A stretch of DNA of 64,000 bases from Methylocystis sp. B8 (lineage in GTDB: Bacteria; Pseudomonadota; Alphaproteobacteria; Rhizobiales; Beijerinckiaceae), in assembly GCF_005771425.1 (NCBI RefSeq), contig NZ_VBTZ01000001.1:434001-498000 (forward strand). The letters run 5' to 3'. The notes under the pieces are model-generated. The model was not told the origin of the DNA, ran no database searches, and worked only from the letters and a program-made list of their open reading frames with translations. A program made the translations under genes and the position numbers. Every line of letters begins with the position of its first letter. The stretch's first letter is position 1. Below, one piece after another: positions 54,011 to 58,866 of this stretch.

Positions 54011-55753
54011 TTACTCCTCGGACTTCTTGCCCTTCTTGGGCGTTTCGTCGCGGGCCTTTAGCGCCGCGCCGAGAATGTCGCCAAGCGAAGCGCCGGAGTC
54101 GGCAGAGCCATATTGCGCGATGGCCTCCTTCTCCTCGGCGACCTCGAGCGCCTTGATCGAGACGGAGATCTTGCGCGCCTTGCGGTCGAAGAGCGTCACG
54201 CGGGCGTCGACCTTCTCGCCGACGGCGAACCGATCTGGACGCTGGTCGGCGCGGTCGCGAGCGAGTTCGCTGCGCTTGATGAAGGTCGTAAGATCAGTGC
54301 CGGCAATCTTCACGTCGATGCCGGAGTCCTTCACCTCAATCACTTCGCAGGTGACGACGGCGCCTTTCTTGATCTCGCCGCCTTCCTCGGCGCTGACGGA
54401 AGCGAAGGGATCGCCCGCAAGCTGTTTGACGCCAAGGGAAATGCGCTCCTTCTCCACGTCGACGTCAAGGACCTGGGCGTTGATGATGTCGCCCTTCTTA
54501 TATTCCTCGATCACCTGCTCGCCGGGACGGTTCCAGTCGAGGTCCGACAGATGGACCATGCCATCGACATCGCCGTCGAGGCCGATGAAAAGACCGAATT
54601 CGGTCTTGTTCTTGACTTCGCCGGAAACGGTCGAGCCGACCGGATGTTTCTCGGCGAATCCCTCCCACGGATTCTGCAGGCACTGCTTGAGGCCGAGCGA
54701 GATGCGGCGCTTGACCGGATCGACTTCGAGCACTTGGACGTCGACCTCCTGGCTCGTCGAGACGATCTTGCCGGGATGAACGTTCTTTTTCGTCCAGCTC
54801 ATTTCCGAGACGTGGACGAGTCCTTCGATGCCAGGCTCCAATTCGACGAAAGCGCCGTAGTCGGTGATGTTGGTCACGCGGCCATGGAATCTCGCGCCGA
54901 TCGGATATTTCGCCTCGATGCCCTGCCACGGGTCCTCGAGAAGCTGCTTCATGCCAAGCGAGATGCGGTGCGTCTCGTGGTTGATCTTGATGATCTTTAC
55001 CTTGACGGTCTGGCCGATGGTCAACACCTCGGACGGGTGATTGACGCGCCGCCAGGCGATGTCGGTGACATGCAGCAGGCCATCGATGCCGCCGAGATCC
55101 ACGAAAGCGCCGTAGTCGGTGATGTTCTTCACGACGCCGTCGATCACCTGTCCCTCTTCGAGATTGGCGACGATCTCGTGACGCTGCTCGGCGCGGCTCT
55201 CCTCGAGCACGGTGCGGCGAGACACGACGATGTTGCCGCGGCGCCGGTCCATCTTCAGGATATGGAAGGGCTGCGGCACATTCATCAGCGGGCCGACGTC
55301 GCGGATGGGTCGGATATCGACCTGGCTGCGCGGCAGGAAGGCCACGGCGCCGTCGAGATCGACGGTAAATCCGCCCTTGACCTGGTTGAAGATCACCCCG
55401 TCGACCTTTTCATTGGTCTCGAACGCCTTTTCGAGCTTCACCCAGCTCTCTTCGCGGCGCGCCTTGTCGCGCGAGATGACGGCTTCGCCGAGCGCGTTCT
55501 CGACTCGCTCCAGATAGACTTCGACCTCTTCGCCGACCTGCGGGGCGGGGTCTCGGCCATAACCGGTAAATTCCTTGATGGCGACTCGGCCCTCGGTCTT
55601 GAGGCCGATGTCGATGACGGCGACATCCTTTTCGATGGCGACGACGCGGCCCTTGATAACGGAGCCTTCGAAGGCTTCATTCTGGCCATAGCTTTCGTCG
55701 AGCAGAGCGGCGAAATCTTCGCGCGTGGGCGCGCGATCGGTAGTGACGGACAT
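54011..55753 (-). CDS. rpsA: 30S ribosomal protein S1
   Basis: A protein of 580 residues with the usual run of S1 RNA-binding domains, the later ones repeating the motif D-Y-G-A-F-V-(D/E)-L (DYGAFVDLGGIDGLLH, DYGAFVELEPGIEGLVH). S1 recruits mRNA to the 30S subunit. ATG 55753 (MSVTTDRAPT) has AGGAG close upstream; an extra 7 codons upstream have no support. The cmk gene that often precedes rpsA is not here. Confidence 0.97.
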   Translation of the reverse strand: MSVTTDRAPTREDFAALLDESYGQNEAFEGSVIKGRVVAIEKDVAVIDIGLKTEGRVAIKEFTGYGRDPAPQVGEEVEVYLERVENALGEAVISRDKARREESWVKLEKAFETNEKVDGVIFNQVKGGFTVDLDGAVAFLPRSQVDIRPIRDVGPLMNVPQPFHILKMDRRRGNIVVSRRTVLEESRAEQRHEIVANLEEGQVIDGVVKNITDYGAFVDLGGIDGLLHVTDIAWRRVNHPSEVLTIGQTVKVKIIKINHETHRISLGMKQLLEDPWQGIEAKYPIGARFHGRVTNITDYGAFVELEPGIEGLVHVSEMSWTKKNVHPGKIVSTSQEVDVQVLEVDPVKRRISLGLKQCLQNPWEGFAEKHPVGSTVSGEVKNKTEFGLFIGLDGDVDGMVHLSDLDWNRPGEQVIEEYKKGDIINAQVLDVDVEKERISLGVKQLAGDPFASVSAEEGGEIKKGAVVTCEVIEVKDSGIDVKIAGTDLTTFIKRSELARDRADQRPDRFAVGEKVDARVTLFDRKARKISVSIKALEVAEEKEAIAQYGSADSGASLGDILGAALKARDETPKKGKKSEE

Positions 55754-55861
55754 TTGTTCTCCTGAGGGCCCCATAGGGCGGCGCCGGCAATTGGTTAGCG
55801 TTGCGGATCGGCTTTCGGCGATCGGACGTCCCCCGCGGCTAGAACGCGAGGCTTGACGAAA

Positions 55862-55880
55862 AGTTCGCTTTAAGCGAACT
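55862..55880 (-). promoter_or_regulatory. Dyad in the rpsA upstream region, terminator- or attenuator-like
   Basis: AGTTCGCTT and AAGCGAACT form a perfect 9-bp stem around one base, about 110 nt upstream of rpsA. On the reverse strand it is followed by TTTTC. It may end upstream transcription or attenuate rpsA. Confidence 0.45.
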
Positions 55881-56324
55881 GCCGGCGCGGCCCGATGTCG
55901 AAAACCAAAGCGAATGCGCCGGCTTGGTCTCCGGCGCGGCGCTTATCTATCAGCGACGCGTCGCAGCCGCAAGCGCGTCGACGTGAAAAGCATATGATAG
56001 GCGCTTCGGCAAAGCTCTGATTTTGCGCTGCAATATCGAAATAATATACTGATTGTATGTATTAAACATAATGCGCAAGCGCGCCAATTTACTGCTGGCG
56101 GAATCGCAAGCGCGCGCATAGTCTGCCAAATTGCCAAGCTTCGATGCGCTTTCGCGTTCGCATAGGGCGAAGTCACAGAGATGGGACGAAGGCGAGGTTG
56201 CCGTTTGCCCTGGCGTCGTCTGGCAGGATGGAAACAAGCGTCAGCCGACCAGTTGGGGACAAAAAGTCCGGGAGCGCTAAGTAGAAGCTAGCACGCGCCG
56301 CGAGAGCGGCGACAGCGTCGCCTT

Positions 56325-56341
56325 CCCCTCGTTGCGAGGGG
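56325..56341 (+). promoter_or_regulatory. Leader hairpin before the bufferin-like precursor gene
   Basis: CCCCTCG (56325-56331) and CGAGGGG (56335-56341) pair across TTG. The ribosome-binding site AGGAG follows at once, 12-18 nt after the stem, so the hairpin could control translation of the precursor. Confidence 0.45.
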
Positions 56342-56359
56342 ATATAAGAGGAGAAAGAA

Positions 56360-56593
56360 ATGAAGCCTAATATTATTTCAGGATCGGCTCTCGCCGCGGC
56401 GGCCGTCGCCCTTGCGTTGAGCGGCGCGTCCATCGCGCCCGCACACGCGCACGGCGCGAAGGCGCCCCACATGAAGAGCCATTGCGGCGGCAAAGGAACC
56501 TGCCGCGGCATGGCCAAATGCCATCACAAAGCGCAGTGTCACCATTACAAGGGCCACTGCAATATGAAAAACCGCTGCCACACCAAGAAGTAA
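56360..56593 (+). CDS. Bufferin-like secreted Cys/His-rich RiPP precursor
   Basis: A protein of 77 residues. A long signal peptide (residues 1-30, ending APAHA) is followed by a core with six cysteines at 42, 48, 54, 60, 67 and 73. The spacing is almost regular (x5, x5, x5, x6, x5), with histidine doublets between. It lacks the EGKCG motif of HvfA-type precursors. The next two genes encode an MNIO enzyme and a DUF2063 partner, which marks it as the likely substrate. Related bufferins bind copper. Start ATG 56360 has AGAGGAG upstream. Confidence 0.85.
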   Translation: MKPNIISGSALAAAAVALALSGASIAPAHAHGAKAPHMKSHCGGKGTCRGMAKCHHKAQCHHYKGHCNMKNRCHTKK

Positions 56594-56675
56594 TCGCCTC
56601 ATGCGGGGGCGGTTCATCCTGGCCGTCCCCGTCACCGGCTCTTGCATGAGCGGCGGCGCCTGAGGGGGAGATGTC

Positions 56676-57521
56676 ATGGAAAAGCCCGCGCCTCTCGGCT
56701 ACGGCTTAGGACTGAGGCCCGTCTATTACGACGAGATCCTGGCGTCGCGCCCGCCGATCGACTGGTTCGAAATCATCTCTGAAAACTATATGCTCGCCGG
56801 CGGCAAGCCTTTGGCGATGCTCGATCGCATCCGGGCTGATTATCCAGTCGTCATGCATGGCGTCTCTATGTCGTTGGCCTCAACCGATCCGCTCAACTTC
56901 GATTATCTGCGGCAGTTGCAGGCGCTCGCCGAACGCGTCCAGCCGGCCTGGATTTCAGATCACGTCGCCTGGACAGGCGTTCACGGCGTGACGCTTCACG
57001 ATCTGTTGCCCATTCCCTATACGCGCGAGTCGCTTGCGCATATCGTCGAGCGCATCCTGCGGGTGCAGGATTTTCTCAAGCGCCGGCTCGTGGTCGAAAA
57101 CGCCTCGACTTATGTTTCCTTCGTCGATTCCGAAATGAGCGAGCATGAGTTCGTCCGCGAAATGGCGGAGCGCGCCGATTGCCTGTTGCTGCTCGACGTC
57201 AATAATGTTTTCGTTTCGAGCTTCAATCACGGCTTCGATCCGATCGCCTTCATCGACGGCGTTCCGGCCGAACGCGTCGTGCAGTTCCATATGGCAGGCC
57301 ATACCAATAACGAGACGCATCGGGTCGACACCCATGACCAGCCGGTCTGCGAAGAAGTCTGGGCGCTCTATGAGCACGCCCGCTGGCGATGTGGCGACGT
57401 CTCCGCCATGATCGAGCGCGACGATAATTATCCGCCGCTCTCCGAGCTTCTGGACGAACTCCAGCATATGCGCGACATCGACGCGCGCATCGCAAACGAG
57501 CGAGCGCTCAGCGCGGCATGA
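56676..57521 (+). CDS. MNIO enzyme (DUF692, BufB/HvfB-type)
   Basis: A protein of 281 residues in the multinuclear non-haem iron oxidase family. Likely iron ligands lie in the conserved strands of the TIM barrel: His61 (VVMHGVS), Asp95/His96 (WISDHVAW), Glu141 (VVENAST), Asp174 (LLLDVNN), His205/His209 (FHMAGH) and Asp218/His220 (VDTHDQ). These enzymes oxidise cysteine in peptide precursors to oxazolone/thioamide or thiooxazole. GGGGGAG lies 5 nt before ATG 56676. MbnB of methanobactin synthesis is in the same superfamily. Confidence 0.93.
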   Translation: MEKPAPLGYGLGLRPVYYDEILASRPPIDWFEIISENYMLAGGKPLAMLDRIRADYPVVMHGVSMSLASTDPLNFDYLRQLQALAERVQPAWISDHVAWTGVHGVTLHDLLPIPYTRESLAHIVERILRVQDFLKRRLVVENASTYVSFVDSEMSEHEFVREMAERADCLLLLDVNNVFVSSFNHGFDPIAFIDGVPAERVVQFHMAGHTNNETHRVDTHDQPVCEEVWALYEHARWRCGDVSAMIERDDNYPPLSELLDELQHMRDIDARIANERALSAA

Positions 57522-58354
57522 AGCTCGCCGATTTCCAGTCCCTTTTTCAGGAGCGCGTGCTGGCCGGCTCTGGAGAGGCGGACAAGCCGCTCCTGAAAAA
57601 ATTGAGATCGTCGCCGCGTGGCGCAACTCCTGAGACGCTGCTCGATGTCTATCAGACCGGCTACCGAATACGATTAGCCGATTTCGTTTCCCAGGATCAC
57701 CCGGGGCTGCGCGCGATTCTCGGAGACGAGACTTTTGAGGCGCTGGTCGACGACTACATCGATTGGCGTCCGTCGCGCGAGCCTAACGCGCGCTTTTTTA
57801 CGACCGGACTGCCGGATTTCATGCGCGAAAATTCGCCCTGGCGCGACGACGCTCGGGCGGTCTCCATGGCGCTGTTCGAACGCGCGACGGTGGACGCCTT
57901 CGATGCTGCCGATGAAACCTCCTTGGCGGTGCAGGCGCTGGCGGACTTTACGCCCGAGGATTGGCCTCGCCTCGCCTTCGATTTCGACCCGAGTCTGACG
58001 CTGCTCGAACTCGCAGCCGGAACAGTTCGCGCTTATGACGCGGCCATCAATGAGGAGGAGGCGGAGAAAGTCGATGCGCCTACGGCGGGCGATCAAGTCG
58101 AATATGCGGCAGTGTGGCGAGTCGCGCACGAATCCGCCTACCGCCAGCTCGAGCCCGACGAATATGTCGCGCTCAACGAAGCGCGCGCCGGGCAGGCCTT
58201 CGGAGACATTTGTCAGATGACGGCGTTCCAGCAGGCCGGGGAGATCGCGCCGGAGCGTTTGGCGCAATGCCTATCGAGCTGGTTCCAGGACGGAATGATT
58301 ATCGGCGTGCGCGTGCGCGACGATCATTCTTCAAATACGCCTTCAAGCGCGTAA
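57518..58354 (+). CDS. DUF2063 partner protein (BufC/HvfC-type)
   Basis: A protein of 278 residues. The N-terminal DUF2063 domain begins LADFQSLFQERVLAG and contains VYQTGYRIRLADFVSQDHPGL with DYIDWRPSREPN. It is thought to bind and present the precursor to the MNIO enzyme. The C-terminal half has helical repeats (DPSLTLLELAAGTVRAYD) typical of the family. ATG overlaps the MNIO stop (ATGA). Its 3' end overlaps the convergent Fae homologue by about 31 nt. No DoxX-type BufD follows. Confidence 0.92.
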   Translation: MKLADFQSLFQERVLAGSGEADKPLLKKLRSSPRGATPETLLDVYQTGYRIRLADFVSQDHPGLRAILGDETFEALVDDYIDWRPSREPNARFFTTGLPDFMRENSPWRDDARAVSMALFERATVDAFDAADETSLAVQALADFTPEDWPRLAFDFDPSLTLLELAAGTVRAYDAAINEEEAEKVDAPTAGDQVEYAAVWRVAHESAYRQLEPDEYVALNEARAGQAFGDICQMTAFQQAGEIAPERLAQCLSSWFQDGMIIGVRVRDDHSSNTPSSA

Positions 58355-58866
58355 TGCTGCACGCTCTTGCGGTTGGCGATGAGTTCGTCGGCCGTCGGCT
58401 CGCCCTTCATCGCGCGTGAGATCGCGAGCTTCGTCGCTTCGTAATTGGTGCGATAGAGGTCTTTCTTGTCGAGCTTCTTGTGCTTGGCGCACCGCGGATC
58501 GAGCCAGACCATGATGACCATGCACAGCTCGTTGATCTGATCTTTAGGGATAATTCCTTCTGCGATGCAATCGACGATGGCGTCGCCTGTCGCCGCCTGC
58601 ACGACGCCGCCCAGTAGCTCGACATATTCTTCCGATTTGACCGTCATTTTGGTGGTCATCATTGTCGCCGGCCGCACCTGCTGGTTGAGGTCGCGGATGA
58701 CGAACATGCGCGGATGGCCCGCGACCTGACCCGCCATGCTGGCGAAGGCGTGTCCGACCGGACCCTTGACGTTGCCGATCATCACTTCCGGCATGGCGTC
58801 GGTATATTGTCCGTCCGCCGCCAGAACCGTCGCTTCGCCCGTCGCCAGCCAGATATGCTCGGTCAT
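58324..58866 (-). CDS. Formaldehyde-activating enzyme homologue without the catalytic His
   Basis: A protein of 180 residues related to Fae, which joins formaldehyde to tetrahydromethanopterin. EGIIPKDQINELCMVIMVWLDP, TNYEATKLAISRAMKGEPTADE and NRKSVQHYALEGVF clearly follow Fae. The loop that holds the active His in true Fae (AHIDLIIG) reads AMPEVMIG, so that residue is Met25. It is probably a Fae2/Fae3-type paralogue of unknown role in methylotrophs. The gene converges on the DUF2063 gene with about 31 nt overlap. Confidence 0.88.
   Translation of the reverse strand: MTEHIWLATGEATVLAADGQYTDAMPEVMIGNVKGPVGHAFASMAGQVAGHPRMFVIRDLNQQVRPATMMTTKMTVKSEEYVELLGGVVQAATGDAIVDCIAEGIIPKDQINELCMVIMVWLDPRCAKHKKLDKKDLYRTNYEATKLAISRAMKGEPTADELIANRKSVQHYALEGVFEE

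Follow-up and report, generated by a model that had tools for sequence, protein, structure and literature searches.

Introduction

The systems closest to the locus described here are the bufferins, peptides that are encoded beside MNIO enzymes. In the parts of PMC12452194 drawn on here, Buf1 is reported to bind copper, and the case is made that Buf2 resembles it (Discussion). The bufferin whose function is known protects against excess copper, the signal peptide is part of the recognition in preliminary work on Buf1, and for some MNIO peptides the authors propose functions other than copper handling. Section 14 of that paper gives six conserved cysteines in 90% of the members of Buf2 (Buf_6/12Cys), section 18 names both a TglHI-type partner and NGO1945 as MNIO partners, and Table S2 holds hundreds of unclassified precursors with 1–18 cysteines. 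In the part of PMC13097082 drawn on here, BufA2 is placed in the "Cys-Lys" group of captophorins, and an Asp beside the catalytic Asp of BufB2 is proposed to contact the Cys-Lys lysine.

The window, a 64,000-nucleotide stretch of the Methylocystis sp. B8 genome, contains an MNIO operon that a sequence-only reading had singled out for an unusual six-cysteine precursor. That reading compared the precursor with the HvfA and DUF2282 bufferins alone and omitted the Buf2 family; with Buf2 considered, a six-cysteine precursor is not in itself unusual. A search for Methylocystis or Methylosinus together with bufferin, MNIO or DUF692 found no paper on the Methylocystis operon, and Table S2 of PMC12452194 may list some of the precursors. 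The analysis below makes it probable that this is a bufferin-2-derived RiPP operon whose peptide buffers copper in the periplasm. By analogy with its relatives the operon likely works like a bufferin, and the copper role proposed for the peptide comes from these relatives.

Structure of the operon

The features of the locus are collected in Table 1. The gene order is that of bufA-bufB-bufC, the precursor gene being directly 5′ of the BufB-type MNIO and DUF2063 genes. There are 82 nt between the precursor stop codon and the MNIO gene start; the MNIO gene shares its last 4 bp with the DUF2063 gene. The MNIO sequence gives 370.9 bits with the NCBIfam BufB model (NF050167, cut-off 310) and 361.7 bits with Pfam PF05114. 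The bufferin-type operon of precursor, DUF692 and DUF2063 genes, as first read from the letters, is confirmed. A fae (formaldehyde-activating-enzyme) gene at 58324–58866 lies in convergent orientation to the DUF2063 gene, with a 31-bp overlap between the two. Neither a DoxX gene nor a pmo gene was found beside the operon.

Table 1. Features of the operon and its upstream region (positions in the window)
Feature	Position	Strand	Remarks
Inverted repeat GATTTTGC-GCT-GCAATATC	56019–56037	.	candidate operator, this operon or divergent rpsA
AT-rich block after the inverted repeat, between rpsA and precursor gene	56043–56071	.	11 aligned sequences
Leader hairpin CCCCTCG-TTG-CGAGGGG	56325–56341	+	6 nt before Shine-Dalgarno
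Shine-Dalgarno GAGGAG of precursor gene	56348–56353	+	
Precursor gene (bufA2-derived, His-rich variant)	56360–56593	+	77 aa
Signal peptide of precursor	56360–56449	+	by eye
Core of precursor	56450–56590	+	
Intercistronic stem-loop, precursor-MNIO	56605–56630	+	folding z
MNIO gene (DUF692, PF05114), BufB2 type	56676–57521	+	281 aa, ERDDN motif
DUF2063 partner gene (PME-type 1/BufC-like)	57518–58354	+	278 aa

The partner gene product matches DUF2063 (PF09836) with 56.1 bits (cut-off 27.2); in a PME-type 1 (BufC) partner this domain is fused to one of RRE type. The AlphaFold2 model of the gene product has a mean pLDDT of 56.6, with values below 50 over most of the C-terminal third. With this low-confidence model the best fold matches in the PDB are the TglHI chains 8hi7_A and 8hci_A and then NGO1945 (3dee), with probability 0.99–1.00 and E-values of 0.02–0.03; no match reaches E ≤ 0.001, and the remaining 20 have a probability of 0.06 or less. 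Chains A of these two TglHI entries (269 and 268 residues) were taken as TglI because the DUF692 chain has 304 residues. A search of the partner sequence against PDB sequences gave no match.

The precursor peptide

The 77 aa length and the six-cysteine spacing 5-5-5-6-5 (residues between successive cysteines) given by the sequence-only reading are correct. A signal peptide can be recognized by eye from the MK start, a hydrophobic stretch and an AHA site, with predicted cleavage between APAHA and HGAK, and this is conserved in relatives. The predicted mature 47-mer lacks acidic residues and has 6 Cys, 9 His and 11 Lys/Arg. The residues that follow the six cysteines are, in order, G, R/H, H, H, N and H. 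A structure model of the precursor has a mean pLDDT of 51.2 and shows no confident fold.

The dN/dS values of the precursor gene are 0.05–0.26 against all 16 of the compared orthologues of 76–77 aa. Since these values are low and 22 of 28 Methylocystis loci with the family beside rpsA share the exact spacing, this is not a chance open reading frame; the gene is under purifying selection.

With the NCBIfam BufA2 model the precursor gives 21.5 bits, below the cut-off of 60. The Buf1 precursor of the same genome gives 21.9 bits, no worse a score, and the match to the model by itself thus decides nothing. A Pfam search found no DUF2282 match in the window precursor; the Buf1 gene of the same genome gives 86.2 bits.

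Among 30 precursors from 28 loci, a set that excludes the two- and three-cysteine tandem genes and the sister genus, none has an acidic residue from position 31 onward, and 29 have His directly after the predicted AxA site. This His may, speculatively, provide an N-terminal copper site.

Distribution in Methylocystis

A precursor search of 61 genomes matched 30, all of the same genus as the window; 26 of these carry the His-rich precursor family, and four have weaker canonical paralogues alone. Scanning of named genomes gave 16 loci, 11 in genomes titled Methylocystis and five in drafts with broader names. Orthologue loci include those of M. rosea SV97, M. silviterrae and M. suflitae. When a profile of the His-rich family was run against 385 class-level genomes, two matched: the window's own genome and one weak hit (E = 3.4e-4).

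In 28 of 39 Methylocystis genomes, the interval from rpsA to the MNIO gene contains a precursor of the His-rich family. The listing of these 28 loci required at least four cysteines and an MK start and missed two- and three-cysteine tandem genes. It shows 22 loci with the exact 5-5-5-6-5 spacing, two of which also carry a tandem nine-cysteine gene, four loci with nine cysteines, one with eight and one with five. In all 28 the precursor is followed by the MNIO gene and rpsA is upstream; fae was detected downstream in 18. The other 11 genomes consist of four with a canonical BufB2 operon only and seven with no BufB2-type MNIO by score, five of which are 64–81% complete. Two genomes of the genus that are 98–99% complete (G003, G008) gave no match for MNIO, BufA2 or pmoA.

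The sequence-only reading had proposed a search for precursors of the same cysteine pattern beside MNIO and DUF2063 genes; these are the 22 loci above, and DUF2063 matches are present at the loci. Precursor homologues without MNIO genes, which it had named as evidence against its own proposal, were not encountered: the cognate MNIO adjoins the precursor in 35/35 genomes. Thirty-three of these were found via the precursor and two (G061, G062) via the MNIO, which biases those two toward adjacency.

Additional genes encoding two or three cysteines and a similar signal peptide are present upstream of the operon in 6 of 18 loci (L045, L048, L049, L051, L091, L098). As judged from their sequences, they suggest substrate diversification behind one leader. 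A separate case is G009:C1:2340266-2340832, where an MNIO match over 193 of 281 residues is found beside a canonical BufA2 gene. It may be a canonical operon in decay, the species having the His-rich operon as well.

Probable origin from bufferin-2

In another Methylocystis species (L099) a canonical BufA2 gene with spacing 5-5-6-5-13 occupies the place between rpsA and fae, and in two more species (L097, L098) a canonical operon is found beside fae. The spacing 5-5-6-5-13 as a mark of Buf2 comes from the canonical sequences collected here. A sister genus, probably Methylosinus, with pmoA in 7/7 genomes, has an intermediate core beside an MNIO that is 72–77% identical to the window MNIO.

Profiles of the mature cores, with five of the seven sister-genus cores used, give a probability of 98.4% for the His-rich family versus the sister genus and 52.9% for the sister genus versus canonical Buf2. 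The His-rich family compared directly gives 7.1% with canonical Buf2, 0.1% with Buf1 and 0.8% with a shuffle in which the cysteines were fixed. Because the direct core comparison with canonical Buf2 is weak, the case for descent from Buf2 is built on the enzyme tree, synteny and the intermediate cores of the sister genus.

MNIO enzymes were typed by identity since Pfam scores separate BufB2 from Buf1 poorly. The split is ≥60% for BufB2-type, including the one partial match in G009, and ≤44% for Buf1; the Buf1 MNIO of the window's own genome is 40% identical to the window MNIO. A tree of 50 rows (43 BufB2-type, 7 Buf1) places the window MNIO inside the BufB2 clade. The enzymes of the Methylocystis His-rich family form one clade of 20 rows (support 100/99), next to four enzymes of the genus that accompany canonical BufA2, then the sister genus (94/92); the branch that joins the His-rich clade to these canonical sisters is supported only at 85/72. 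The tree carries long-branch warnings for L168, L173 and several Buf1 rows. It leaves out the near-copies L049, L061, L064, L065, L072, L073, L090, L092 and L100. Two more sister-genus MNIOs of BufB2 type (60% identical) are likewise absent from it.

On this tree, two changes of precursor type are required. Tree and precursor types together indicate an enzyme that was kept beside a substrate that was remodelled, in two separate events or in a single one that was later reversed. The core seems to have been rebuilt from a Buf2 ancestor, with a new spacing, loss of Cys-Lys and an acid-free His-rich composition. As proposed here, this would have happened in the Methylocystis/sister-genus lineage by re-spacing of the cysteines and replacement of Cys-Lys by Cys-Arg/His, and the enzyme would have changed little while the substrate core was rebuilt.

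Loss of Cys-Lys and enzyme recognition

Cys-Lys is absent from all 22 six-cysteine His-rich precursors and occurs 3–4 times in each of the 12 canonical BufA2 precursors compared; the nine-, eight- and five-cysteine relatives keep 1–3. The window MNIO reads ERDDN, and an Asp is present after the presumed catalytic Asp, as read from the motif and not from an alignment to published BufB2. The Asp proposed to contact the lysine thus appears to be retained.

Under the proposed mechanism, the precursor would be made with a Sec signal peptide that doubles as the leader. In the cytoplasm the MNIO-DUF2063 pair would oxidise some of the six cysteines; 5-thiooxazoles are the most likely products. Export would follow, and the modified cysteines together with the many His residues would bind copper in the periplasm, either as buffered excess or as a store for a copper-hungry methanotroph. 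Without a Cys-Lys for the proposed Asp, however, modification could be reduced or absent.

This difficulty leads to a reading in which the peptide is no longer a substrate and acts as a metallothionein-like thiol/His metal binder, the MNIO-DUF2063 pair being kept for stand-alone Cys-Lys BufA2 peptides. The missing Cys-Lys beside an enzyme that keeps the Asp discussed in PMC13097082 speaks for it. So do the genomes of the close clade, where canonical BufA2 is above cut-off in 17/17 and there is no BufB2-type MNIO other than that of the operon in 15/17. Against this, precursor and MNIO genes are adjacent in all 28 listed loci, and the signal peptide, which has a part in recognition in the preliminary Buf1 work of PMC12452194, is conserved. 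Positive charge is partly kept through Arg/His after cysteines 2–4, and the relatives with more or fewer cysteines retain some Cys-Lys. On balance a non-substrate peptide is considered unlikely.

Modification of the peptide by its own operon remains the preferred reading. The Asp may have been kept because the enzyme is shared with canonical BufA2 peptides: the MNIO-DUF2063 pair may serve several precursors in trans, including stand-alone canonical BufA2, and in most close relatives it is the sole BufB2-type pair that could do so. The operon offers a natural experiment on cysteine selection by MNIO enzymes, as the Cys-Lys dyad is lost, the spacing altered and the enzyme Asp kept. The identity of the modified cysteines would tell whether the captophorin Cys-neighbour rules or the signal-peptide leader determine specificity.

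Copper-related loci and alternative functions

The host is a methanotroph, as the sequence-only reading had supposed: its genome has two pmoA matches. The genome also encodes methanobactin, from which the precursor is distinct. MbnA (55.1 bits, cut-off 24), MbnB (449.8 bits on the MbnB model) and MbnC are all above cut-off and away from the window operon. The earlier proposal of a second, non-methanobactin copper peptide holds for "non-methanobactin", but the peptide is not merely a second one. A Buf1 operon, which has a sigma factor and DoxX, two stand-alone canonical BufA2 genes (101.3 and 90.1 bits) and a TIGR04222-MNIO locus are also present. One of the BufA2 genes is near the Buf1 operon and the other is beside a gene for the copper-storage protein Csp1. 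The operon would be one more part of copper handling beside methanobactin and Csp1, and it is widespread in Methylocystis.

Three of these loci can be described further. At L041:4509-5377 (C1 of the same genome, ~695 kb) the stand-alone canonical BufA2 gene converges on the Csp1 gene, and no MNIO match of the genome was found near it. At L042:4433-6742 (C12, ~47 kb) a TIGR04222 membrane protein with a Cys-rich tail is encoded directly upstream of an MNIO gene; the two open reading frames as listed overlap, and nearby genes resemble pqq genes by eye. At L043:4336-5232 (C22) a longer sigma-factor-like open reading frame ends with the MbnA peptide in the same frame. NCBIfam has a model for a sigma-factor/MbnA-type fusion; the 30-aa MbnA part alone was compared here.

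Copper supply in place of protection would make the peptide a loader that delivers copper in the periplasm to particulate methane monooxygenase and complements methanobactin. In a pmoA search of eight genera of the taxonomic family two matched, and the same two carry the His-rich precursor family, although two related genera may represent a single event. In 29 of 30 precursors the predicted cleavage would leave His at the N-terminus, which is compatible with an N-terminal His copper site. However, a draft genome that is 99% complete (G001) has the operon and no pmoA match, which counts against a tight link of the operon to methane oxidation. In addition, pmo genes are absent beside the locus, and the bufferin of known function counters copper excess (PMC12452194). 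A supply role is accordingly rated as very unlikely.

A broader proposal, quite unlikely as a whole, is that a bufferin-2 enzyme of type II methanotrophs acquired a new variable substrate family, consisting of tandem cores with 2–9 cysteines behind one conserved signal peptide, and oxidises Cys-His. The peptide, with thiooxazole/His and N-terminal His copper sites, would load or buffer copper for particulate methane monooxygenase, beyond detoxification.

The metal itself might be another, e.g. gold, silver, nickel or zinc. The core is His-rich, and non-copper roles are proposed for some MNIO peptides in PMC12452194. The bufferin studied in that paper nevertheless binds copper, and the genome contains pmoA as well as methanobactin and Csp1 genes, so that buffering of a different metal is judged highly improbable. 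Buffering of copper remains the favoured function.

Regulatory and RNA features

The leader hairpin that the sequence-only reading placed next to the ribosome-binding site is present, but its support across close loci is modest. The shuffle z is -3.2 in the window and +0.3 to -1.9 in 16 other close loci. Twelve aligned sequences of the 17 in the close clade keep the stem, with C-G, G-C, T-G and G-T variation; L063, a close locus outside this alignment, does not form it.

The intercistronic stem-loop is the firmer feature. Of 40 MNIO-proximal intergenic regions, 38 have a folding z of at most -1.2; the other two are L097 (+0.5) and L098 (-0.9). The position of the stem-loop is kept, with differing sequences, in the His-rich family and most of the canonical bufferin operons compared. 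It would fit an excess of precursor over enzyme mRNA.

The inverted repeat upstream is, with low confidence, a possible operator. Its core TTGC-N3-GCAA is found in 11/11 aligned close upstream regions, and with up to two mismatches the repeat matches once in the window versus 0.02 expected. The exact ATTGC-N3-GCAAT was not found at the Buf1, BufA2 or mbn loci of the same genome. With one mismatch the repeat occurs at eight places in this genome versus three for the reversed control, and no regulon is established. The AT-rich block is recognisable in close orthologues and is a possible promoter region, with no direction assigned. An Rfam search of 55700–58400 with E up to 0.5 found nothing. A scan for sigma-70 promoters and terminators gave 2 and 6 sites versus 1.0 and 3.6 in shuffles, none of them at the operon start.

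Comparison with known MNIO systems

The oxazolins (Buf_EGKCG, HvfA) have a signal peptide, an MNIO and a PME-type 1 partner; in the window operon these correspond to a putative signal peptide, an MNIO and a partner that resembles PME-type 1. The window precursor differs in lacking the EGKCG repeat; the absence of this motif, stated in the sequence-only reading, was confirmed on the 77-aa translation. Its MNIO gives 268.7 bits with the HvfB model, below the cut-off of 360, and on these two grounds an HvfA/oxazolin identity was rejected.

Methanobactin (MbnA/B/C) is a copper peptide made with an MNIO and encoded in the same genome. Unlike the window operon with its putative signal peptide, it has no signal peptide, an MbnC partner and a distant MNIO. 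A methanobactin identity was rejected because the window MNIO gives 76.5 bits with the MbnB model (cut-off 325) and no MbnC match is present at the operon.

Buf1 (DUF2282, PF10048) has in common with the window operon the signal peptide (putative in the window precursor), the MNIO and the DUF2063 partner, but it has four cysteines, its own MNIO clade, the DUF2282 domain and a sigma factor and DoxX nearby. As the window precursor has no DUF2282 match, a Buf1 identity was rejected.

Buf2 (BufA2, NF050166) is the nearest system. Six cysteines, a putative signal peptide recognized by eye, the bufA-bufB-bufC order, an MNIO of the BufB2 clade and a DUF2063 partner are shared. The differences are in the peptide. 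The spacing is 5-5-5-6-5 in the window and 5-5-6-5-13 in canonical Buf2, and the window precursor has no Cys-Lys. The His-rich family lacks the C-terminal cysteine 13 residues on, and its mature part has 9–12 His and no Asp/Glu. The window precursor is also far below the BufA2 model cut-off. By the curated definition a BufA2 identity was rejected on score, non-canonical spacing and absence of Cys-Lys. The precursor thus fails the formal BufA2 tests, yet most likely descends from the BufA2 family.
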